Positions 30,168 to 39,979 of a DNA stretch of 64,000 nt are shown in pieces. A model generated the notes under the pieces. That model was not told where the DNA came from and made no database searches. It saw nothing but the letters and a program-made list of their open reading frames with translations. The DNA is from Paraflavitalea soli (GTDB taxonomy: Bacteria; Bacteroidota; Bacteroidia; Chitinophagales; Chitinophagaceae), in NCBI RefSeq assembly GCF_003555545.1, contig NZ_CP032157.1, forward strand, positions 8,002,546 to 8,066,545, written 5' to 3'. How positions within the stretch are numbered: the first letter of the stretch is position 1; each line of letters begins with the position of its first letter. The position numbers and the translations under genes were made by a program.

Positions 30168-32648
30168 ATGGCAAAAGGAATTGATTTCGAAATAAAAGCG
30201 TTGAAGTATCTCCGGTCTTTGTTTGAGTACCTGGGTTTCAGGGTAACCGCTGAAAGGCAACAGGATACCGGTACCCAGAACGGTTTCGACCTAAGGATAA
30301 GTTTTTTTGACGACAACGGAAAGCTACGGCATTTTTACTTTGAATGTAAGGACTATAATACTACCCTTTACTGGAAAGACCTTCTCACAAAAATAATAGA
30401 ACTGAATACTTCCCGTCACCAGGTAGATGGTTTTATCGCTATGTCTCCGCATGTAGATCTCAGTAACATACACAGTAATATAAACGACCACTTACCAACC
30501 CTGGTAAAATTTCCCATTGAGTTCTGGACGCCTGAATCATCAGTAAAGAATTACTTTTCCCTGGGTGAAGATTTTTATAGTTCCATATATGGCCGTAAGC
30601 CTAAGGTTACGGCTACCGAAAAAGAGCGTATCCGTCAAGATCTGCGTGCTGTGGTATTGGACATGCTTCGGCAAAAGGATCAACTGGCCTTGGCAAATAC
30701 ACACACTACTTTTCCTAAAGAACTAACCTCTAAGATCCCCCGCATTCACCAGCACGATATCATAGGCCGGGAAGATGAATTACAGGACCTGCATACTTTA
30801 CTATTCAACAACAAACAGGTAGTAGTGGTCAATGGGATGGGCGGTATAGGAAAAACAATCCTTTCCCAGGCATACCTCAGTAAATATTATGACGACTACC
30901 ATCATATAGCCTGGGTTTCCCAACTTACCAACGATATCGCCAATGACATCGTTAGTGCAAGTGGGCTGGCAGAAAATCTGTCTGTGTCAAAGGAGAACAA
31001 AGAAGTGAACCAGGTATTTGATGAAATACTCCGCCGGTTAAAAGCATGTTCTGATGGCCCCAACCTGCTGATCCTTGACAATGCTGAAGAAGCGCTCACA
31101 AAACTGAAAGATATATTGCCTGGCCAGCCTGATTGGCACCTGCTGATCACCTCACGCCATCGCATAGAAGGGTTTTATCCCAAGGAGTTGGATTTTTTAT
31201 CCCCTCCCCAGGCCCTTGCTTTATTCCAAAAGCACTGCACACGCATTAAAAATGAAGAGCTAATTGCAGGACTGTTAAAGGTCATCGACTACCATACCCT
31301 TACAATAGAAATATTGGCCAAAACAGCAGAACGGCAAAAGCTGGATGTGGAAACTCTTAAAAAAGGCATTAAAGACGACCTGAAAGCCAATGTTTATGTG
31401 AACCATAAGGGAAATAAGATAGACAAGGTATTCTCTTACCTATCCTCCATTTTTAACCTTAGTGGTTTAAGTGAAGAAGAAGCCTGGTTGATGAAACAGT
31501 TTACCTGCCTGCCTGCGGAGTTTCATCCCTATGATCTGTTGCTGGAATTGATCGATCCTCCTGAAAATAAAAGGGAAGTATTTGCAGATACAATCGAAAG
31601 GCTGGTGGAGCTTGGCTGGTTAATAAAGAATATGGAAACAGAGGCTTATAAAATGCACCTGGTGGTAAAAGAAGTAGCGGTCAGGCAGTTGCAACCAACA
31701 TGGCAGAATATTGAAGGTTTATTGAATAAGATAGCAGATAATTTAGACATTGACCAATCCAAAGACAACCCCGTAGAGAAGTTCCGGTGGATACCTTTTG
31801 GCCATGCCTTGCTCAATAATTTTCCGAATGATACAGCTACCGTTATTGTGCGCCTGCAAAATAACCTGGCACTAGTGCTTATAAATCTGGGCAATTATAC
31901 CGAAGCGCGGGTCTTGTTAGAGAAGGTCCTCTATTCAGTTGAGCAAAAATTCAGCCCTGACCACCCTACTACAGCAGTGAGTTATTCAAATCTGGCAACG
32001 GTACTTAATGCCCTGGGTGACTATGCCGGGGCGAAGGCCCTGCTGGAGAAGGCAATGCATTCAGCTGAGCAAAATTTCGGCCCCGACCATCCTTATACGG
32101 CACGCAGCTATTCAAATCTGGCAACGGTACTTCAAAACCTGGGCGATTACACTGGAGCAAGAGCCTTACTGGAGAAAGCTCTACATTCCGATGAGCGAAA
32201 TTTCGGCCCTGACCATCCCACTGTTGCAGTAAGGTATTCGAATCTGGGAACTGTGTTTAAAGATCTGGGCGATTATATCGGGGCGCGGGGCTTATTGGAG
32301 AAAGCTATGCACTCAGAGGAGCAAAACTTCGGCCCTAACCATCCGAACACCGCAGTGAGTTATTCGAATCTGGCATTAGTGCTTCTCGACCTGGGCGATT
32401 ATGCCGGGGCGCGGGCCTTGTTGGAGAAAGCGGTACATTCCAACGAGCGAAACTTTGGTCCTGACCATCCAACCACGGCAGTGAGCTATTCTAATCTGGC
32501 AATGGTGCTTAGGTACTTGGATGATTATACACTGGCCTTGGAATTAGCCGAAACGGGCCTTTTAATTCTCAAGAAAATATTACCCCAAGGTCATCCTTAC
32601 ATTGGCACGGCTCAAAGCATTTATGATTCTATAAAAGCTAAGCTTTAA
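30168..32648 (+). CDS. Nuclease-STAND NTPase-TPR protein, candidate single-gene anti-phage system
   Basis: An 826-residue three-part protein. Residues 1-125 look like a Mrr-type PD-(D/E)xK nuclease: Glu8 in the first helix, Asp41 (QNGFDLRIS) and Glu59-Cys-Lys61 (YFECKDY). Residues ~195-560 are an NB-ARC/STAND NTPase with HDIIGREDEL, a Walker A loop VNGMGGIGKT (223-230), Walker B LLILDNAEE (Asp304) and LITSRHR (Arg330/332). Residues 569-778 hold five 42-residue kinesin-light-chain-type TPRs (LGDYAGARALLEKA ... FGPDHPTTAVSYSNLA). This is the effector-switch-sensor layout of Avs and related STAND defence proteins, so DNA cleavage on sensing an invader is inferred. It stands alone between a terminator and a TetR locus. 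Confidence 0.85.
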   Translation: MAKGIDFEIKALKYLRSLFEYLGFRVTAERQQDTGTQNGFDLRISFFDDNGKLRHFYFECKDYNTTLYWKDLLTKIIELNTSRHQVDGFIAMSPHVDLSNIHSNINDHLPTLVKFPIEFWTPESSVKNYFSLGEDFYSSIYGRKPKVTATEKERIRQDLRAVVLDMLRQKDQLALANTHTTFPKELTSKIPRIHQHDIIGREDELQDLHTLLFNNKQVVVVNGMGGIGKTILSQAYLSKYYDDYHHIAWVSQLTNDIANDIVSASGLAENLSVSKENKEVNQVFDEILRRLKACSDGPNLLILDNAEEALTKLKDILPGQPDWHLLITSRHRIEGFYPKELDFLSPPQALALFQKHCTRIKNEELIAGLLKVIDYHTLTIEILAKTAERQKLDVETLKKGIKDDLKANVYVNHKGNKIDKVFSYLSSIFNLSGLSEEEAWLMKQFTCLPAEFHPYDLLLELIDPPENKREVFADTIERLVELGWLIKNMETEAYKMHLVVKEVAVRQLQPTWQNIEGLLNKIADNLDIDQSKDNPVEKFRWIPFGHALLNNFPNDTATVIVRLQNNLALVLINLGNYTEARVLLEKVLYSVEQKFSPDHPTTAVSYSNLATVLNALGDYAGAKALLEKAMHSAEQNFGPDHPYTARSYSNLATVLQNLGDYTGARALLEKALHSDERNFGPDHPTVAVRYSNLGTVFKDLGDYIGARGLLEKAMHSEEQNFGPNHPNTAVSYSNLALVLLDLGDYAGARALLEKAVHSNERNFGPDHPTTAVSYSNLAMVLRYLDDYTLALELAETGLLILKKILPQGHPYIGTAQSIYDSIKAKL
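31872..32501 (+). repeat. Five tandem 126-bp coding repeats (TPR units)
   Basis: Within the STAND gene, five in-frame 126-bp units encode nearly the same 42 residues. Recurrent DNA words include ATTCGAATCTGG and CTGGGCGATTATNCCGGGGCG. Such similarity would allow unit gain or loss by recombination, changing the sensor. Confidence 0.8.
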
Positions 32649-32663
32649 TGTCCACTGTATGGA

Positions 32664-33284
32664 TCATTTAACGATCACCTCCATGAAACGCCTCTGCGTT
32701 TCGGTAGTTAAATAAGGATAGAACATATGTATAAATACATGGCGGTAATGGTCGATCGCCTTATTGCCTTTTAATCTTACCGTCAGCTCATTATTGGAGA
32801 GCCAGAAATCCGCAACAATAAATATTTGCGTAACCAGCGACTGCAACACTTCTTTCGGAATGTCTGTTCTGAGTAGCCCCGCCGTTTGCAGTTTTTCAAA
32901 AAGCAGCAGGAATTCTTTTTCCCGGCGCTTTGTCAAGGCTGCATATTCCTTTTTGATCGCAGGAATGCGCAGACCGATCTCCACAAAATGAAGGAATATA
33001 AAACGGTTCTTGTAGGCCAGCGCAAAGGACTGGTCAACATACTCCTTCATCGTATCCAGGTCGATCAGGTCAAGTGTTCCCAAGCCCTTTACGATGGCAT
33101 CAAAGTCCAGGGCCAGCCGATCGTACAGGCTTTTAATGATCTCATCCGTTTGCTTGAAATGATAATGCAGGTTGCCCGGACTAATGCCCATTTCAGCAGC
33201 AATATGCCTGCTGGTGATGGTATTCACACCCTGACTGTTATAAAGCTCCAGGGCCACCTGGAGTATGCGTTCCTTGGTATCCAT
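32664..33284 (-). CDS. TetR/AcrR family transcriptional regulator
   Basis: The 206 residues begin with the TetR helix-turn-helix (KERILQVALELYNSQGVNTITSRHIAAEMGISPGNLHYHFKQTDEII; landmarks TSRHIAAEMGIS and NLHYHF). The rest is a helical ligand and dimer domain. It is divergent from two small membrane protein genes, and the 66-base gap contains a perfect 20-bp palindrome, so it probably represses both itself and those genes. The ligand is unknown. Its -7 box ends only 5 bases from the start codon, so the transcript may be leaderless. Confidence 0.9.
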   Translation of the reverse strand: MDTKERILQVALELYNSQGVNTITSRHIAAEMGISPGNLHYHFKQTDEIIKSLYDRLALDFDAIVKGLGTLDLIDLDTMKEYVDQSFALAYKNRFIFLHFVEIGLRIPAIKKEYAALTKRREKEFLLLFEKLQTAGLLRTDIPKEVLQSLVTQIFIVADFWLSNNELTVRLKGNKAIDHYRHVFIHMFYPYLTTETQRRFMEVIVK

Positions 33285-33289
33285 GCTGG

Positions 33290-33297
33290 CAAATTTA
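33290..33297 (-). promoter_or_regulatory. -7 box of the tetR-type gene (TAAATTTG)
   Basis: An exact TAnnTTTG on the minus strand, partly inside the operator palindrome and 5 bases before the ATG at 33284. No clear -33 TTG is seen. This geometry places transcription start at or next to the A of the ATG. Confidence 0.5.
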
Positions 33298-33313
33298 GAA
33301 CAATTGTTCTAAA
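33294..33313. promoter_or_regulatory. Palindromic operator, TTTAGAACAATTGTTCTAAA
   Basis: A perfect 20-bp palindrome in the tetR divergent gap. A second half-like site TTTGTTCTAAA lies at 33331-33341, downstream of the -7 box for the plus-strand genes. Placement over the -33 element of one promoter and the -7 box of the other suits a TetR operator. Confidence 0.8.
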
Positions 33314-33334
33314 TAAGAATAATTAGTACATTTG
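33304..33334 (+). promoter_or_regulatory. Promoter of the small membrane protein pair
   Basis: TTG at 33304-33306, 20 bases, then TACATTTG at 33327-33334: an exact Bacteroidota -33/-7 pair. The -33 is inside the operator palindrome, so bound regulator would block it. The ATG follows 16 bases after the box. Confidence 0.7.
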
Positions 33335-33350
33335 TTCTAAATAGGGTAAC

Positions 33351-33545
33351 ATGAACAACCAGGTAAGTGATCCGGAGAGAAAAAGTACATCCTTGTACGA
33401 GCAATTGAGAAATAATATTCTCCCACTAAAGCCCACCGATTCTGCATCGGGAAGGGTGCTCAAGCAAAGCGCCTTTTATTTGTTCCTTGTCATGTTAGTG
33501 CTAATTACCGGGGTGGTGGCACTGGCCATCACATTTGTATTGTGA
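33351..33545 (+). CDS. Small single-pass membrane protein, TetR-controlled
   Basis: A 64-residue protein with a polar N-terminus of about 38 residues and one membrane helix (AFYLFLVMLVLITGVVALAITFVL) ending at the C-terminus. It starts 16 bases after an exact promoter and immediately precedes another membrane gene (1 base gap). I know no family. Its regulation by the adjacent TetR-type protein suggests a part in response to a membrane-active compound. Confidence 0.65.
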   Translation: MNNQVSDPERKSTSLYEQLRNNILPLKPTDSASGRVLKQSAFYLFLVMLVLITGVVALAITFVL

Positions 33546-33546
33546 G

Positions 33547-33909
33547 ATGAAAAAACTATTTGATCCATTCTTTATCAGCTACTGCCTGGTATGGGCCTTC
33601 ATACATGGCTGCCGGTATCTTAAACAGCCGGTACCCCTGCTCAATGACCACCTGACTGATCTGATAGCGGTACCCGTCATGGCCCACCTTACACTGGCTT
33701 TTACGCGCAGGTATATTGTCAGGAATAACTTTTATACTTATCCCTTCGGCTACCTGCTCTTTATCGCCTTGTATGTCTCCATAATATTTGAAGGGATCAT
33801 GCCCTGCCTTTCCCCTGCCTATACCGCTGATGTCTGGGACATAGCCTCCTATTTTGGCGGGAGCATTTTTTATTATTGTCTTCATCAAAGGTCATGGGTT
33901 ACCGCATAA
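33547..33909 (+). CDS. Small multi-pass membrane protein, unknown function
   Basis: A 120-residue protein with about three to four hydrophobic segments (PFFISYCLVWAFIHGCRYL, LIAVPVMAHLTLAF, FGYLLFIALYVSIIFEGIMPCL, IASYFGGSIFYYCL). The charged loop TRRYIVRNNFYTYP lies between them. The layout recalls VanZ-like small proteins, but no firm match is claimed. ATG 33547 is one base after the previous stop, so translation is probably coupled; the TTG at 33535 is less likely. Confidence 0.65.
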   Translation: MKKLFDPFFISYCLVWAFIHGCRYLKQPVPLLNDHLTDLIAVPVMAHLTLAFTRRYIVRNNFYTYPFGYLLFIALYVSIIFEGIMPCLSPAYTADVWDIASYFGGSIFYYCLHQRSWVTA

Positions 33910-34280
33910 CTTTATAAAAAACCACCCATACACTGCGCTGCAGCCTTCCCATGACCTATAATAGTCGTAGGTAGTCGAATCAGGCCATCTTAGTCGATTC
34001 CGACCCAAAGCCACCCGCATTTGCATACATTTTAATCTATAAGTACGTTTGTTGGGTAATATTGACCGCACTGCAAAGGAAGCCGTAGGGGAGTCATAGG
34101 GTAGTCGAAGGGTAGTACAAGGGTGCTAATAGCGTTTATCATTAAAACATGTCTTTTTACTAAAAAAGCAGGGCAACTGGCGCCCCTGCCCCTAATCCTA
34201 AACAATCCCCAAATCCCAATAAATTCTAAAATCTGGCACAATTATTTGGAAACCCCCTGTCGGAAAATGTAAATTGTACC
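33910..34280. other. Intergenic region with GTAGTCG/GGGTAGT words
   Basis: No gene is seen. The first part (33960-34000) has TAGTCGTAGGTAGTCGAATC facing TTAGTCGATTCCG, a small inverted pair. The second (34081-34127) has repeated GGGTAGTC-type words (CATAGGGTAGTCGAAGGGTA). Both fit the word-repeat style of other gaps in the window. Confidence 0.45.
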
Positions 34281-34844
34281 ATGCACGAGATTGAACCATT
34301 TTATAACTGGCGGCATATTTACACCAGTGAGCAGGATGAACGGTCTCCCTTTTTTGGGAGGGTGTATTCGGAGTTTACCTATACCCAGGTTGTCTACAAC
34401 TATTATATCCATCCCCAGTGGGATGATTTTGGTTCCCGTACCCTGTACCTGAAAGTATTGATGGCAGATTATGATGAACATTATGTGATCATTGAAATGA
34501 TCGGCGAATGGAATGATGCGATCGAGAATGATATTATGGAGCTGAAGCGGGAGGTCACCGATGTGTTCTTTTCCATGGGCATCACCAAATTCATTTTAAT
34601 AGGCGAGAATGTGTTGAACTTCCACAGCGGTGATAAAGATTATTACCAGGAATGGTTTGAGGAAGTGACCGACGAAAACGGGTGGGTGGTGATCCTCAAC
34701 ATGCCCGGGCAAACACAGCATGATTTTGTAAGGGCCAAGCTGAACCGTTATGTGGAGCTGATGCAGCTGGATAACTGGCGCACCTACAGACCTTTTCACC
34801 TGTTCAAAAAGATTGACGAAGAGATACAAAAACGGCTGGAATAG
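34281..34844 (+). CDS. Protein of unknown function, probably conserved in Bacteroidota
   Basis: A 187-residue acidic cytoplasmic protein. The start HEIEPFYNWRHIYTSEQDERSPFFG and the central strand and helix pattern (LYLKVLMADYDEHYVIIEMIGEW, KREVTDVFFSMGITKFILIGENVLNFH) suggest a compact alpha/beta domain. No catalytic motif is recognised. It is followed by the attenuator region of the aromatic cluster, from which it is independent. Confidence 0.65.
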   Translation: MHEIEPFYNWRHIYTSEQDERSPFFGRVYSEFTYTQVVYNYYIHPQWDDFGSRTLYLKVLMADYDEHYVIIEMIGEWNDAIENDIMELKREVTDVFFSMGITKFILIGENVLNFHSGDKDYYQEWFEEVTDENGWVVILNMPGQTQHDFVRAKLNRYVELMQLDNWRTYRPFHLFKKIDEEIQKRLE

Positions 34845-34912
34845 CTGCTGGGAGCGGGTTCTTATGGGAAAAGGCCCCGTTGGCCATCGTAATTCACCCC
34901 GAAAAAAAGAAT

Positions 34913-34942
34913 TTTGTTTTTCGCGATTACTAACTATTTTTG
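34913..34942 (+). promoter_or_regulatory. Promoter of the aromatic amino acid cluster
   Basis: TTTG at 34913-34916, 18 bases, then TATTTTTG at 34935-34942, matching the TTG/TAnnTTTG pattern. The leader peptide ATG at 34948 comes 5 bases after the box, so the transcript would begin at or near that ATG. Confidence 0.65.
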
Positions 34943-34947
34943 ATCCA

Positions 34948-35040
34948 ATGTTAAAGGCAAAGGCATACCGTTATTTTTACTTTTATTTTTTCTTCTACTT
35001 TACCAGTAGGCCGGGAGTGCTTTTGTTGACAACCAAATAG
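34948..35040 (+). CDS. Phe/Tyr-rich leader peptide (attenuation)
   Basis: A 30-residue reading frame containing YRYFYFYFFFYF, that is six Phe and five Tyr within twelve codons (34966-35001). It lies between an exact promoter and a strong terminator, 96 bases ahead of pheA. This is the known layout of transcription attenuation, where ribosome stalling on the codons for the end product allows read-through. The inclusion of both Phe and Tyr matches a cluster that makes both. The frame also contains GGCCGGGA (35009-35016), complementary to the terminator's left arm. Too short and biased to be a functional protein. Confidence 0.85.
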   Translation: MLKAKAYRYFYFYFFFYFTSRPGVLLLTTK

Positions 35041-35071
35041 AACAAATAAAATCAACATAAGAATCCCGGCC
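35009..35071 (+). promoter_or_regulatory. Antiterminator pairing segments
   Basis: GGCCGGGA (35009-35016) is exactly complementary to TCCCGGCC (35064-35071), the left arm of the terminator. The two structures are mutually exclusive. A ribosome halted on the upstream Tyr/Phe codons would leave the first segment free to pair and prevent termination. Confidence 0.7.
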
Positions 35072-35092
35072 AAAAGGCCGGGATTTTTTTTG
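35062..35092 (+). terminator. Attenuator terminator upstream of pheA
   Basis: AATCCCGGCC pairs perfectly with GGCCGGGATT around AAAA and is followed by T7. It lies 22 bases past the leader stop codon and 45 bases before pheA. Confidence 0.9.
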
Positions 35093-35136
35093 CCTCACCT
35101 ACTGTCTATCAGTACGGTAGGCTTTAAAAACAACCA

Positions 35137-36021
35137 ATGGAACAACAGCGACAATTGGACCCCCTGAACAACAGTTCTTCTCCCAAAACGGCAGGAAAGG
35201 GTATACGCGTATCGATTCAAGGTTATGAAGGCAGCTTTCACCAGGTGGCAGCCCAGCAATTCTTCGGTGCAGCCGTAGAGGTCATTCCCTGCGCTACCTT
35301 CCGGGAGGTGGTAAAAATTGCCGCCAATAAAAAAGAGAGCGAAGGCGGCGTGATGGCCATCGAGAACTCAATAGCTGGCAGCATCCTTCCCAATTATAAC
35401 TTATTACAGAAAAGTAACCTTACGATAATAGGAGAGATCTATCTTCCCATCAAGCAACAACTACTGGTGAATCCCGGTGTAAAACTGGAAGATATCCGCG
35501 AGGTGCATTCGCATCATATGGCCATCCAGCAATGCCTGGAGTTCCTGGATAAATATGACTGGAAACTGGTGGAAACAGAAGATACAGCACTTAGCGCCAA
35601 ACACCTGCACCAGCACAGAAGCAAGCATACGGCTGCTATTGCCAGCAAACTGGCGGCAGACCTCTTTGAACTGGAAGTGCTGGCCCCCAATATCCATACC
35701 ATGAAAAGCAATTATACACGATTTCTGGTATTACAACCCGAAGGAGTAGCGCAGCCCGTTGCAGATGCCAACAAAGCATCGGTCAATTTTCATACCGACC
35801 ACTCCCGGGGCAGCCTGGCCAGGGTATTATCGAAAATTGCAGAGGGGGGCATCAACCTCAGTAAACTGCAAAGCTTTCCCATTCCGGGCAGTGATTGGGA
35901 ATACAGCTTTCATGCAGACATGGAATTTGATGCACTGGAACAATTCAATACCGTGATCGAACAAATTAAACCGATCACTGCTGAGTTGAAGATCTACGGC
36001 GTGTACAAAAACGGCAAATAA
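35137..36021 (+). CDS. pheA: Prephenate dehydratase with ACT domain
   Basis: Converts prephenate to phenylpyruvate, committing it to phenylalanine. The 294 residues lack a chorismate mutase domain. The catalytic part has IQGYEGSFHQVAAQQFF, AIENSIAGSI and the essential SNYTRFLVL. The ACT domain (~210-290) contains GSLARVLSKIAEGGINLSKLQSFPIPG; the Phe-binding ESRP of well-studied enzymes is QSFP here, so feedback inhibition may differ. It is the first structural gene after the attenuator. About 20 polar residues precede the domain. Confidence 0.95.
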   Translation: MEQQRQLDPLNNSSSPKTAGKGIRVSIQGYEGSFHQVAAQQFFGAAVEVIPCATFREVVKIAANKKESEGGVMAIENSIAGSILPNYNLLQKSNLTIIGEIYLPIKQQLLVNPGVKLEDIREVHSHHMAIQQCLEFLDKYDWKLVETEDTALSAKHLHQHRSKHTAAIASKLAADLFELEVLAPNIHTMKSNYTRFLVLQPEGVAQPVADANKASVNFHTDHSRGSLARVLSKIAEGGINLSKLQSFPIPGSDWEYSFHADMEFDALEQFNTVIEQIKPITAELKIYGVYKNGK

Positions 36022-36100
36022 GCTACGAGCCACGAGCTACGAGCAAATACAAGTTGTTGCACAGGAAGGCTCGCAGCTCGAAGCTCACAGCTCGCAGCTT
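36021..36100. repeat. GAGCT-word repeat, copy 3 (two arms, core AAATACAAG)
   Basis: The left arm is AGCTACGAGCCACGAGCTAC plus GAGC; the core is AAATACAAG; the right arm (36067-36100) is GGCTCGCAGCTCGAAGCTC followed by ACAGCTCGCAGCTT. It lies inside the aromatic operon, between pheA and the aminotransferase gene. Confidence 0.75.
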
Positions 36101-36128
36101 GAATTAAACTAAGAAAGAACATTCGTTT

Positions 36129-37313
36129 ATGAACATAGCAACATCAAAAAGATTAGAAGGCATCGGTGAATACTACTTCTCACAAAAGCTGCGGGAGATA
36201 GATGAACTGAACAAGCAGGGTAAGCAGATCATTAACCTGGGCATTGGCAGCCCCGACCTGCCGCCACATCCGGAAGTGATCAAAACCCTGCAGGAAGAAG
36301 CTGCAAAACCCAATGTTCATGCTTACCAAAGCTATAAAGGCTCACCGGTCCTGCGCAAAGCTGTAGCCGATTGGTACAGCAAATGGTATGGTGTAACACT
36401 CAATCCCGATACGGAAATATTGCCCCTGCTCGGCAGCAAGGAAGGCATCATGCACATTTGCATGACCTACCTCAACAAAGGCGATAAAGTACTGGTGCCC
36501 AATCCCGGCTACCCCACATACAGAAGTGCGGTGAAACTGGCAGGAGGGGAGTGCATAGATTATGAACTGAAAGAAGAAAACAACTGGTACCCCGATTTTG
36601 ATCAACTGGAAAATATAGTAGGTTCTTCCCTGGGTTATAAACTGATGTGGGTGAACTATCCGCATATGCCTACCGGGCGCTTGCCGGAGAAAGCCTTGTT
36701 TGAAAAGCTGGTAGCCTTTGGTAAAAAACACAATATCCTCATCTGCCATGATAACCCCTATAGCTTTATCCTCAATGACAGCCCTATGAGCCTGTTCAGT
36801 GTGGAAGGTGCCAAAGAGGTGGTGATCGAGTTGAACTCCTTAAGCAAATCACAGAACATGGCAGGCTGGCGCATCGGCACTTTGTGCGGCGCCAAAGAGC
36901 GGATCGATGAAGTGCTCCGGTTCAAAAGCAATATGGACAGTGGTATGTTCCTGCCCCTGCAACTGGCAGCTGCCAAAGCCCTGGGCCTGGGTAAGGATTG
37001 GTATGATAGTGTGAATGCGGTATACGCTGCCAGGAGAAAGAAAGTGTTTGAATTGCTCGACCTGTTGAACTGTGTGTATGATAAAAGTCAGGCCGGTATG
37101 TTTGTATGGGCGAAGATCCCCGCAGGATATAAAAATGGCTTTGCCCTCAGCGATGAGATCTTGTACAATGCCAATGTATTCATCACGCCGGGCGGCATCT
37201 TTGGCAGCGCAGGTGAGCAATACATCCGCGTGAGCTTGTGCAGTCCGGAAGAGAAGCTGGGCGAAAGCATCAAACGGGTAAATGAATTATTTCTACAGGT
37301 AAAAGACAAATAG
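36129..37313 (+). CDS. Class I/II PLP aminotransferase, probably aromatic amino acid aminotransferase
   Basis: The 394 residues have the fold-type I signatures INLGIGSPDLPPHP, LLGSKEGIMHI, NPGYPTYRSA, an Asp/Tyr pair in HDNPYSF and SLSKSQNMAGWRIG with the PLP lysine at Lys240. The family motif NYPNNPTG reads NYPHMPTG. Members act on aspartate, LL-diaminopimelate precursors or aromatic keto acids. Placement between pheA and tyrA suggests it makes Phe and Tyr from phenylpyruvate and 4-hydroxyphenylpyruvate. It ends 3 bases before tyrA. Confidence 0.88.
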   Translation: MNIATSKRLEGIGEYYFSQKLREIDELNKQGKQIINLGIGSPDLPPHPEVIKTLQEEAAKPNVHAYQSYKGSPVLRKAVADWYSKWYGVTLNPDTEILPLLGSKEGIMHICMTYLNKGDKVLVPNPGYPTYRSAVKLAGGECIDYELKEENNWYPDFDQLENIVGSSLGYKLMWVNYPHMPTGRLPEKALFEKLVAFGKKHNILICHDNPYSFILNDSPMSLFSVEGAKEVVIELNSLSKSQNMAGWRIGTLCGAKERIDEVLRFKSNMDSGMFLPLQLAAAKALGLGKDWYDSVNAVYAARRKKVFELLDLLNCVYDKSQAGMFVWAKIPAGYKNGFALSDEILYNANVFITPGGIFGSAGEQYIRVSLCSPEEKLGESIKRVNELFLQVKDK

Positions 37314-37316
37314 CAA

Positions 37317-38165
37317 ATGTTCAATACGGTTACCATCGTCGGCGTAGGTTTGATCAGCGGTTCTTTCAGCCTCGCGTTGAAAGAAAAAGGACTGGCCAAA
37401 AAAGTAATCGGCGTCAGCCGCACCGCTGCCAGCGCACAAAAAGCCCTGGAACTGGGACTCATCGATGAAGCCCTGCCACTGGAACAGGCCATCGCGCAAA
37501 GCGACCTCATCTATGTGGCCATCCCCGTGGATGTTACCATCCCGGTTATGAAGCAGGTAATGGACCTGGTGACAGACAAGCAAATAGTGGCCGATGCAGG
37601 GTCTACCAAACATGCCCTGTGCCTGGCCCTGAACGATCACCCCATGCGCCGGCAGTTTGTAGCCACCCACCCCATGTGGGGTACCGAATACAGCGGCCCC
37701 GAAGCCGCCGTAAGAGATGCCTTCGTAGGCAGGGCTTGTGTGATCTGTGAAAAAGAGAAGAGTGATCCCGCTGCCGTGGAAAAGATAGAGCAGGTGTACC
37801 GTGCACTGGGCATGCACATCATCTACATGGATGCAGACAGCCATGACACCCATGCTGCCTATATTAGCCATATTTCACATATTACCTCTTTTGCTCTGGC
37901 CAATACGGTTTTGGAGAAAGAAAGGGAAGAAAATACCATTTTCGAGCTGGCCGGCGGCGGTTTTGAAAGTACCGTCAGGCTGGCCAAAAGTAACCCGGCC
38001 ATGTGGGTGCCCATTTTCATGCAAAACCGTGAAAATGTGCTTGATGTGCTGAATGAGCACATCAGCCAGCTCCGGAAATTCAAGGCATGCCTGGAGAAAG
38101 AGAATTACCAGTACCTCCAGGAGTTGATAGAAAATGCCAATAAGATAAAACGGATCATAAAGTAA
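37317..38165 (+). CDS. tyrA: Prephenate dehydrogenase
   Basis: Oxidises prephenate to 4-hydroxyphenylpyruvate for tyrosine. The 282 residues start with a Rossmann motif (VTIVGVGLISGSFSLAL), followed by YVAIPVDVTIPVM, ADAGSTKHAL, THPMWGTEYSGPEAA (substrate site) and MDADSHDTHAAYISHISH with the catalytic His region. There is no ACT domain, so regulation is probably at the attenuator or in other enzymes. It starts 3 bases after the aminotransferase gene. Confidence 0.93.
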   Translation: MFNTVTIVGVGLISGSFSLALKEKGLAKKVIGVSRTAASAQKALELGLIDEALPLEQAIAQSDLIYVAIPVDVTIPVMKQVMDLVTDKQIVADAGSTKHALCLALNDHPMRRQFVATHPMWGTEYSGPEAAVRDAFVGRACVICEKEKSDPAAVEKIEQVYRALGMHIIYMDADSHDTHAAYISHISHITSFALANTVLEKEREENTIFELAGGGFESTVRLAKSNPAMWVPIFMQNRENVLDVLNEHISQLRKFKACLEKENYQYLQELIENANKIKRIIK

Positions 38166-38253: not shown

Positions 38254-38261
38254 TACCTTTG
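38254..38261 (+). promoter_or_regulatory. -7 box (TACCTTTG) of the DEAD-box helicase gene
   Basis: An exact TAnnTTTG, 17 bases before the start at 38279. No convincing TTG is at -33. It suggests that the helicase has its own promoter despite lying inside the aromatic cluster. Confidence 0.5.
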
Positions 38262-38278: not shown

Positions 38279-39979
38279 ATGATGACTTTCGCTGAGTTGG
38301 GTTTGGATGCGAAACTGGTACAGGCTACCGACGCATTAGGCTATAAAAACCCAACACCTATACAGGAAAAGGCTATTCCTGTTCTTATAAGTGGAACCAA
38401 GGACCTGGTAGGTCTGGCGCAGACTGGTACCGGGAAAACAGCGGCCTTTGGCCTGCCTCTGTTGCACCTGATCGATGAGGGACAAAAGTTCCCGCAGGCG
38501 TTGGTGGTGTGTCCCACGAGGGAGCTTTGCCTCCAGATCGTGAACGAAATGGAGCTGTTTAAGAAGTTTCAGACCGGTATGCATGTAGTGGCCGTTTATG
38601 GCGGTACATCCATCGGTCAGCAGATACGGGACCTGAAAAGAGGCGTACAGATCGTGGTAGCGACTCCCGGCCGTTTAATTGATCTTATTGAGCGCAAAGC
38701 GATCAATTTAGAACAAATAAAATATGTAGTTCTTGACGAGGCGGATGAAATGCTGAACATGGGTTTTAAGGATGATATTGAATTCATCCTGCAGAATACG
38801 CCCAACCGTCAGAGCACCTGGTTATTCAGTGCTACCATGCCACCGGAAATTCGCCGGATCAGCAAGAAGTACCTGAAAGACCCCATGGAGATCACGGTTG
38901 GTAAGACCAATACGGCCAATAAGAACATCGACCACCAGTATTTTGTAACCAGTGCACAACACAGGTACCAGACACTGAAACGGTTGATCGACTTTAACCC
39001 GGGTATTTATGGCATCATTTTTACCCGTACCAAGGCCGATGCGCAGGATATAGCAGAGAAGCTGACCCGGGAGGGATATGATATCGATGCATTGCATGGC
39101 GACCTGACGCAGCAGCAGCGTGATAAAGTGATGGGTGAGTTCAGGGATAAGACCTTACAGCTCTTAATAGCTACCGATGTAGCAGCCAGGGGTATCGACG
39201 TAGCGGGTATCACCCATGTGATCAACTACGAGTTGCCCGATGATGTGGAAGTGTACACACACAGAAGCGGTCGTACAGGCCGGGCGGGTAATACCGGTGT
39301 ATGTATGTCCATCATCCACATCCGTGAAATGGGTAAGATGAGGCATATCCAGGGTATCGTACAGGTGCCTTTCCACAAGATGGATATTCCTGGTGGTAAG
39401 GATGTATGCCGCAAGCAGTTCTTCCATTTCATGGAGAAACTGTTGCAAACCGATATCAGCCATGGCGATTATGAAAGCTATGTACCCATGCTGGAAGAAA
39501 AGTTTGCCGATGTGAGCAAGGAAGAGGTACTGAAGCGCGTAGCTGCCATGGAGTTTGACAGGTTCCTGAAATATTATGAAAATGCAGAAGACCTGAATAT
39601 TTACGAGCAGCGCAGGGAACGTTTTGAGCGCGGCGCTGGTATGGACAGAAGAGGTGGTGACCGTGAAAGAATGCCAGGACGTGATACCAGGGGAAGGCAG
39701 TTTGGAAGCAGTGCAGGTGGTAACGGCGGCGGCGGAGATTACGCCCGGCTGTTTGTGAACCTGGGTACCAAAGATGGTTTTTACAAAGCGAGTTTCTTAC
39801 AGTTTATCCTTGACCTGAGTGATTTGCGCAAAGAGGTATTGGGAAGGATCGACATGAAGGAAATGAACAGCTGGATCGAGATCGATAAAAGAGCCGCCAA
39901 ACAAATGATAGCGGCCATCGATGGAAAGAATTACAAAGGAAGAAGGATCAGGATGAATGATGCGGATAGCCGCAGGTAG
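38279..39979 (+). CDS. DEAD-box RNA helicase with DbpA-like RNA-binding domain
   Basis: A 566-residue helicase with all core motifs: TPIQEKAIP (Q motif), AQTGTGKTA, PTRELCLQI, TPGRLIDL, VLDEADEML, FSATMP, ATDVAARGID and HRSGRTGRAG. After a helical extension and an Arg/Gly-rich linker (about 455-495, RRGGDRERMPGRD), residues ~498-560 form a DbpA-type RNA-recognition domain (YARLFVNLGTKDGFYKASFLQFIL). It resembles DeaD/CsdA proteins that remodel ribosomal or cold-stabilised RNA. It interrupts the aromatic gene order, and a -7 box of its own precedes it. A second Met at residue 2 is an equal start candidate. Confidence 0.93.
   Translation: MMTFAELGLDAKLVQATDALGYKNPTPIQEKAIPVLISGTKDLVGLAQTGTGKTAAFGLPLLHLIDEGQKFPQALVVCPTRELCLQIVNEMELFKKFQTGMHVVAVYGGTSIGQQIRDLKRGVQIVVATPGRLIDLIERKAINLEQIKYVVLDEADEMLNMGFKDDIEFILQNTPNRQSTWLFSATMPPEIRRISKKYLKDPMEITVGKTNTANKNIDHQYFVTSAQHRYQTLKRLIDFNPGIYGIIFTRTKADAQDIAEKLTREGYDIDALHGDLTQQQRDKVMGEFRDKTLQLLIATDVAARGIDVAGITHVINYELPDDVEVYTHRSGRTGRAGNTGVCMSIIHIREMGKMRHIQGIVQVPFHKMDIPGGKDVCRKQFFHFMEKLLQTDISHGDYESYVPMLEEKFADVSKEEVLKRVAAMEFDRFLKYYENAEDLNIYEQRRERFERGAGMDRRGGDRERMPGRDTRGRQFGSSAGGNGGGGDYARLFVNLGTKDGFYKASFLQFILDLSDLRKEVLGRIDMKEMNSWIEIDKRAAKQMIAAIDGKNYKGRRIRMNDADSRR

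Follow-up and report, generated by a model that had tools for sequence, protein, structure and literature searches.

The window, a 64,000 nt stretch of the 8.44 Mb Paraflavitalea soli genome (contig NZ_CP032157.1), carries on its forward strand pheA, encoding prephenate dehydratase (35137–36021; Pfam PF00800, E 5.7e-56), a class I/II aminotransferase gene (36129–37313; PF00155) and tyrA, encoding prephenate dehydrogenase (37317–38165; PF02153 and PF20463), Pfam assignments which agree with a preliminary description of this DNA in which tyrosine and phenylalanine were taken to be products of the cluster. The order pheA-aminotransferase-tyrA was kept in 78 of the best 80 of 209 relatives, in the other two loci the sequence reaches just 1256 and 1278 nt past pheA, and this order fits phenylalanine and tyrosine as the regulated products; we infer that the three genes are co-transcribed as an operon. 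A DEAD-box helicase gene (38279–39979), with its own exact −7 box at 38254–38261 (17 nt before the ATG), lies between tyrA and a DAHP synthase/chorismate mutase gene, and an 826 aa protein with an NB-ARC ATPase and TPR repeats is encoded at 30168–32648.

Ahead of pheA, on the same strand, a leader peptide gene of 30 codons plus stop (34948–35040) translates to MLKAKAYRYFYFYFFFYFTSRPGVLLLTTK, in which 11 of the 12 residues from 7 to 18 are Phe or Tyr (codon tract 34966–35001, the putative sensor), the count given previously. The gene is followed by an intrinsic terminator (35062–35091; stem 35062–35085), a perfect 10 bp helix (35062–35071/35076–35085) with an AAAA loop and a tract of eight T (35084–35091), two of which lie within the stem. 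The perfect stem had been described correctly, the run of seven T had not, as six T follow the stem. Within the leader gene, GGCCGGGA (35009–35016) is exactly complementary to 35064–35071 in the left arm of the terminator, a match already pointed out, and two further helices that had been missed (35020–35022/35059–35061 and 35024–35029/35052–35057) extend it into an antiterminator, with a 5′ arm at 35009–35029 (strand 2) and a 3′ arm at 35052–35071 (strand 3) which includes the terminator 5′ arm and a conserved TCAACA element. A 1:2 hairpin, also missed before, pairs strand 1 (34957–34970) with a 3′ arm at 35012–35026 that overlaps the antiterminator 5′ arm. The antiterminator (35009–35071) folds at −23.2 kcal/mol (8 + 3 + 6 bp) and the terminator (3:4) at −22.1 kcal/mol, whilst the ribosome-free leader of the window folds into the 1:2 hairpin plus the terminator. 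Complementarity, folding and the pairing counts given below agree that the antiterminator (2:3) excludes the terminator, and point, with weaker support than for 2:3 and 3:4, to a 1:2 hairpin that would keep the antiterminator from forming unless a ribosome stalls. The parts of ribosome-mediated attenuation claimed for this locus are all present, with the 1:2 hairpin and the longer antiterminator in addition.

A ribosome with an assumed 12 nt between A site and leading edge was walked along the leader in silico. In the window, placing the A site anywhere between codons 34969 and 34996 left the antiterminator at −23.2 to −24.5 kcal/mol, with −14.5 kcal/mol at the last Phe and −5.3 kcal/mol one codon on; in this walk the antiterminator stays accessible while the ribosome is stalled on the regulatory codons. 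The antiterminator energy was more than halved one codon past the last Phe/Tyr codon in 64 of 93 loci, two codons past it in 26 and three codons past it in 3, with a mean of −19.0 kcal/mol two codons before the end of the tract and a mean terminator energy of −18.0 kcal/mol in the 93 relatives, which implies that the sensor ends where stalling would cease to help. At least 17 nt separate the end of the antiterminator segment from the stop codon in 50 of 93 leaders, thus a terminating ribosome may not cover the segment and the 1:2 hairpin must mask it.

Distribution of the leader and position of its promoter

Of 147 Chitinophagaceae genomes, 103 gave a PheA match at E ≤ 1e-30, and all 103 upstream regions were read. 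At 97 of the 103 loci there is a frame in which 7 or more of 12 codons are Phe or Tyr, followed by a terminator at 93 of those 97. The preliminary description had named pheA orthologues lacking a Tyr/Phe-rich frame as evidence that would speak against it; no leader at the 7-in-12 cut was found at L151, L161, L176, L181, L182 and L183, three of which reach 6 in 12, and these are possibly natural losses or weaker leaders. Loci L078 and L095, with 30 and 92 nt of upstream sequence, are too short to judge.

Across the phylum, PheA was found in 333 of 392 genomes (E ≤ 1e-20) and 98 hand-chosen places were read, 69 of which had a leader at a looser cut of 6 in 12. Leaders were present in family f2 of the same order as P. 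soli (5/5 places), in f3 (11/11), f5 (37/38), f8 (3/7), f9 (3/3), f11 (4/4) and f12 (1/1) of the same class, in f17 (1/1), f20 (1/1) and f35 (2/2), which share the phylum only, and in f1 (1/1). No leader was found in f4 (8 places), f10 (3 places) or eleven other families represented by one or two places each (13 in total), so that 24 of the 98 places are absences in thirteen leader-free families, with five more absences in leader-bearing families; those where PheA is fused or N-terminally extended, and the upstream sequence may hence be intragenic, or where the locus is cut (L281), are weak absences. Such a leader had been thought unusual in Bacteroidota, which does not hold for its occurrence, as it is common in several families, but does hold for the literature, in which our searches found it barely described. 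In two f35 genomes (L193 and L194) the PheA is 60% identical to that of P. soli and is preceded by a Phe/Tyr leader and terminator, whilst the other f35 genomes listed encode a PheA of 33–37% identity; from the sequences, this looks like an operon transferred together with its leader.

Upstream of the P. soli leader, a −7 box, TATTTTTG, lies at 34935–34942 on the forward strand, matching the Bacteroidota sigma-A consensus TAnnTTTG and placed 5 bases from the leader start codon, as had been noted, with a TTTG, which we take to be the consensus of the −33-type box, 18 nt before it (34913–34916). A sigma-70 scan for E. coli-type promoters gave none at the leader, and the terminator was listed on the reverse strand only. 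As the −7 consensus TAnnTTTG is reported to occupy −12 to −5 (PMC9723704), transcription is predicted to start at 34947, leaving a 5′ UTR of ~1 nt. Of the 97 family loci, 84 have an exact TAnnTTTG no more than 45 nt from the leader ATG, vs. 3 of 290 control windows, and the gap from box to ATG is 4–8 nt at 64 of the 97, for which the same box position predicts a 5′ UTR of 0–4 nt. In 72 relatives the exact −7 box is ≤20 nt from the ATG, and among these TTTG was found at a spacer of 18 nt in 10 and of 19 nt in 26 (36 in total). This promoter spacing makes a near-leaderless start of the pheA leader likely, in line with the earlier suggestion that the transcript may be leaderless. In f2 the gaps are 7, 8, 10, 27 and 35 nt, in f3 17–28 nt (6 of 11 leaders with a box), in f5 18–34 nt (8 of 37 with a box), in f11 27–33 nt and in f12 27 nt, whilst in f8, f9, f17, f20 and f35 the 45 nt before the leader ATG contain no exact box. 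Chitinophagaceae and part of f2 therefore show the near-leaderless spacing, which elsewhere is absent or not judgeable.

Conservation of codons and of RNA pairing

In 93 unique tracts from Chitinophagaceae, 847 of the 976 in-frame codons are Phe (523) or Tyr (324), and Tyr occurs in all 93 tracts and at least twice in 91; conserved leader codons, which the preliminary description proposed to look for in this family, are thus present. The alternative which survives best, and which we consider unlikely rather than remote, is that the same attenuator responds to Phe alone, the Tyr codons being neutral fillers or slow-decoding neighbours. Phe codons do outnumber Tyr codons in the tracts, and the Phe-Tyr-Phe leader AroR of Corynebacterium glutamicum answers to Phe with no effect of Tyr availability (PMC11802643), a precedent against reading Tyr codons as proof that Tyr is sensed. 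Against a Phe-only response, however, no tract lacks Tyr, tyrA lies downstream in the same gene row, and the Tyr codons of the window span the whole range in which a stall keeps the antiterminator intact. We infer that the attenuator may sense Tyr as well as Phe.

Beyond the tract, the GGG core of the antiterminator falls in codon frame 2, 1 and 0 in 47, 25 and 13 of 85 leaders, respectively (8 of the 93 leaders, with no GGG there, were left out), so the constraints on RNA and on codons can be separated, and among 97 leaders the peptide ranges from 17 to 40 residues with a shifting stop codon. What is conserved in the tract is the codons, and in the remainder of the leader the RNA. A functional Phe/Tyr-rich peptide acting elsewhere in the cell has a precedent in peTrpL of Sinorhizobium meliloti, which acts in trans (PMC7298713), but with a core read in three frames, a mobile stop and no conservation of sequence outside the tract we rejected it as very improbable here.

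Slightly less credible again is a role of the pyrimidine-rich tract as a signal in the RNA itself, either a protein site or a pause, with the Phe/Tyr reading a by-product of its composition. The tract is rich in T, and DNA rich in T, A and C gives many Phe/Tyr codons. Genome-wide, runs of eight Phe/Tyr codons occur at two sites, the pheA leader (three overlapping matches) and a single TTY-only run, and the reversed pattern, searched as a control, gave no forward and two reverse matches, hence poly-pyrimidine runs as such are not uncommon. The enrichment is however specific to one frame, and we rejected an RNA signal on this ground: Phe/Tyr codons number 243/883 and 240/883 (~27%) in the other two frames of the 93 unique tracts, base shuffles giving 425 ± 12, and TTR and TAR codons are absent in frame, vs. 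200 TTR and 22 TAR in the +2 frame. The 69 leaders of the phylum set behave alike (564/713 in frame vs. 146/644 and 155/644 out of frame), and an ATG stands just upstream of the tract, at the short distance from the box seen in those 64 loci.

The score for complementarity between terminator arm and leader averaged 12.6 in 93 relatives vs. 7.0 in shuffled leaders, with the best partner of the arm 6–13 nt after the last Phe/Tyr codon and at least 6 bp long in 84 of 93 leaders. For the 1:2 duplex (93 leaders), native arms gave −14.1 kcal/mol vs. −11.1 ± 0.3 kcal/mol with arms swapped between genomes (the best of 200 swaps reaching −11.85) and −8.5 kcal/mol with shuffled 5′ arms. Pairs were counted in 91 aligned leaders (90 distinct), L170 and L171 being left out for their longer N-terminus: 59.5% of 1:2 cells were paired vs. 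at most 48.9% in controls slid out of register, 74.8% vs. at most 50.1% for 2:3, and 86.8% vs. at most 58.6% for 3:4. As regards the compensatory changes that the preliminary description proposed to look for, the covariation score exceeded all 500 shuffles for each of the three pairings, a comparison in which related rows may exceed shuffles even without structure. The number of pairs changed on both sides was reached by 174 of 500 shuffles for 1:2, which is no excess, by 16 for 2:3 and by 6 for 3:4. Slid registers gave up to 16 such pairs vs. 15 in the true register for 1:2 and up to 15 vs. 12 for 2:3, and sliding 1:2 by −1 gave 111 both-side cells vs. 100; 1:2 is the weakest of the three pairing counts. 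RNAalifold on the mixed 91-row alignment predicted the terminator and nothing else, because one structure cannot hold competing pairings, and the named structures were therefore counted instead. Although the 5′ region is structured and has a terminator, a riboswitch, T-box or other cis-regulatory RNA class before pheA is scarcely credible, as the attenuator explains all the conserved pairings tested and neither a T-box nor a riboswitch was among the matches at E ≤ 5 in 33000–37000, a T-box leader being rejected because its covariance model had no match there.

Leaders of the His and Trp operons

The hisG and trpE genes of P. soli are also preceded by leaders, rich in His and Trp codons, respectively. 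HisG was found in 46 of 60 family genomes and the best 30 of the 46 were read (own locus L295, others L300–L328), giving a His-rich leader with a terminator at 26 of 30 loci and a box gap of 4–10 nt at 18. TrpE was found in 44 of 60 family genomes, and among the best 30 of the 44 (L329–L358) all 30 loci had a Trp-rich leader, 29 with a terminator. The trpE locus of P. soli itself (L297, 640–960) has a Trp leader of the WWWHTN type, a terminator and a box, CATATTTG, 7 nt before the ATG. An exact TAnnTTTG was found within 45 nt at 7 of the 30 trpE loci, six of them with a gap of 5–7 nt, whilst the looser YAnnTTYG, a pattern chosen after the sequences had been inspected, lies 4–9 nt before the leader ATG at 24 of 30 loci vs. 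1 of 116 control windows. A quick look upstream of two ilvD genes gave no evident leader. No Rfam 15 leader family reached its threshold for the pheA, hisG and trpE leaders of P. soli or for 20 pheA relatives, and the hisG locus of P. soli matched no leader family of Rfam.

Chitinophagaceae may share a single near-leaderless attenuator design among the Phe/Tyr, Trp and His operons, a proposal that we make tentatively and regard as slightly more doubtful than probable. The leader start codon would form, or nearly form, the first transcribed bases, so that ribosomes could load without a Shine-Dalgarno sequence as soon as this 5′ AUG emerges and trail RNA polymerase from the beginning, and the pheA leader would in addition be a true OR gate, opened by a shortage of Phe or of Tyr.

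Proposed mechanism and comparison with known systems

Taken together, the anatomy of the locus, selection at the codon level, its conservation, the covariation of all three pairings, the match in register between tract and antiterminator and the position of the promoter, all computed here, make ribosome-mediated transcription attenuation of the pheA-aminotransferase-tyrA operon highly probable. Transcription would start at the leader AUG or a few bases away. With charged Phe- and Tyr-tRNA, or with no ribosome on the leader, the passing ribosome or the 1:2 hairpin would block pairing of 35009–35029 with 35052–35071, the terminator (35062–35091) would form and transcription would stop before pheA. 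If charged Phe- or Tyr-tRNA were scarce, the leading ribosome on the translated leader would stall in the tract and open the 1:2 hairpin, freeing 35009–35029 to capture the terminator 5′ arm, and RNA polymerase would read through into pheA.

Ribosome-mediated attenuation needs a leading ribosome close behind RNA polymerase. The occurrence in many Bacteroidota families of an attenuator that is complete and covaries suggests that ribosome and polymerase are coupled in a phylum without Shine-Dalgarno sequences; in Flavobacterium psychrophilum, mRNAs lack the Shine-Dalgarno sequence and 5.5% of the mapped mRNAs are leaderless (PMC9723704). In Chitinophagaceae, the near-leaderless start predicted alike for the three kinds of leader (Phe/Tyr, His and Trp) suggests a general way of loading ribosomes. 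The leader would be a ready reporter for coupling and for leaderless initiation in Bacteroidota, and its design would allow the annotation of leaders that Rfam 15 does not call.

The mechanism itself is classical attenuation. The pheA leader of E. coli is Phe-only and has an ordinary ribosome-binding site, whereas in P. soli Tyr codons are mixed with Phe codons, tyrA lies downstream and the start is predicted to be near-leaderless. The enterobacterial pheA leader is represented in Rfam by RF01859 (Phe_leader), likewise a leader RNA with a terminator directly before pheA; it matched the window over its full length with 41 bits (E 1.4e-4), below the gathering threshold of 55 bits, and among 20 tested of the 103 relatives 3 gave 29.0–30.9 bits, the maximum being 30.9. 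In E. coli, control of pheA depends on pheL and is exerted by Phe-charged tRNA (PMC11802643).

Within Bacteroidota, a 2021 study of F. psychrophilum (PMC9723704) reports a pheA 5′ element, present in other Flavobacteriaceae and classed with the original elements that have no Rfam hits, and strong clues for leader-peptide attenuation before amino-acid biosynthesis operons. This is likewise a structured, transcribed pheA 5′ region, for which the text consulted gives neither a leader sequence nor its codon content and mentions no antiterminator or covariation. A map of Bacteroides thetaiotaomicron notes short frames resembling leader peptides (PMC7366714), and the sources retrieved in our literature search, as far as their text was accessible, describe no Phe/Tyr attenuator in Bacteroidota beyond the F. 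psychrophilum study. A leaderless transcript, which the preliminary description considered odd for an attenuator, has precedents in actinobacteria, where attenuator leaders of Streptomyces lividans (PMC8079986) and mycobacterial polycysteine ORFs (cited in PMC9031893) are reported to have the leader frame at the extreme 5′ end of the transcript, as is predicted for P. soli; these belong to another phylum and concern other amino acids, and some of the S. lividans cases are reported without a typical terminator. The nearest Phe/Tyr leader among the literature found is AroR of C. glutamicum (PMC11802643), which lies before aroF and, as in P. soli, combines Phe and Tyr codons before an aromatic-pathway operon with ribosome-mediated attenuation, yet differs in having three such codons, in preceding a DAHP synthase operon, in belonging to another phylum and in being blind to Tyr.
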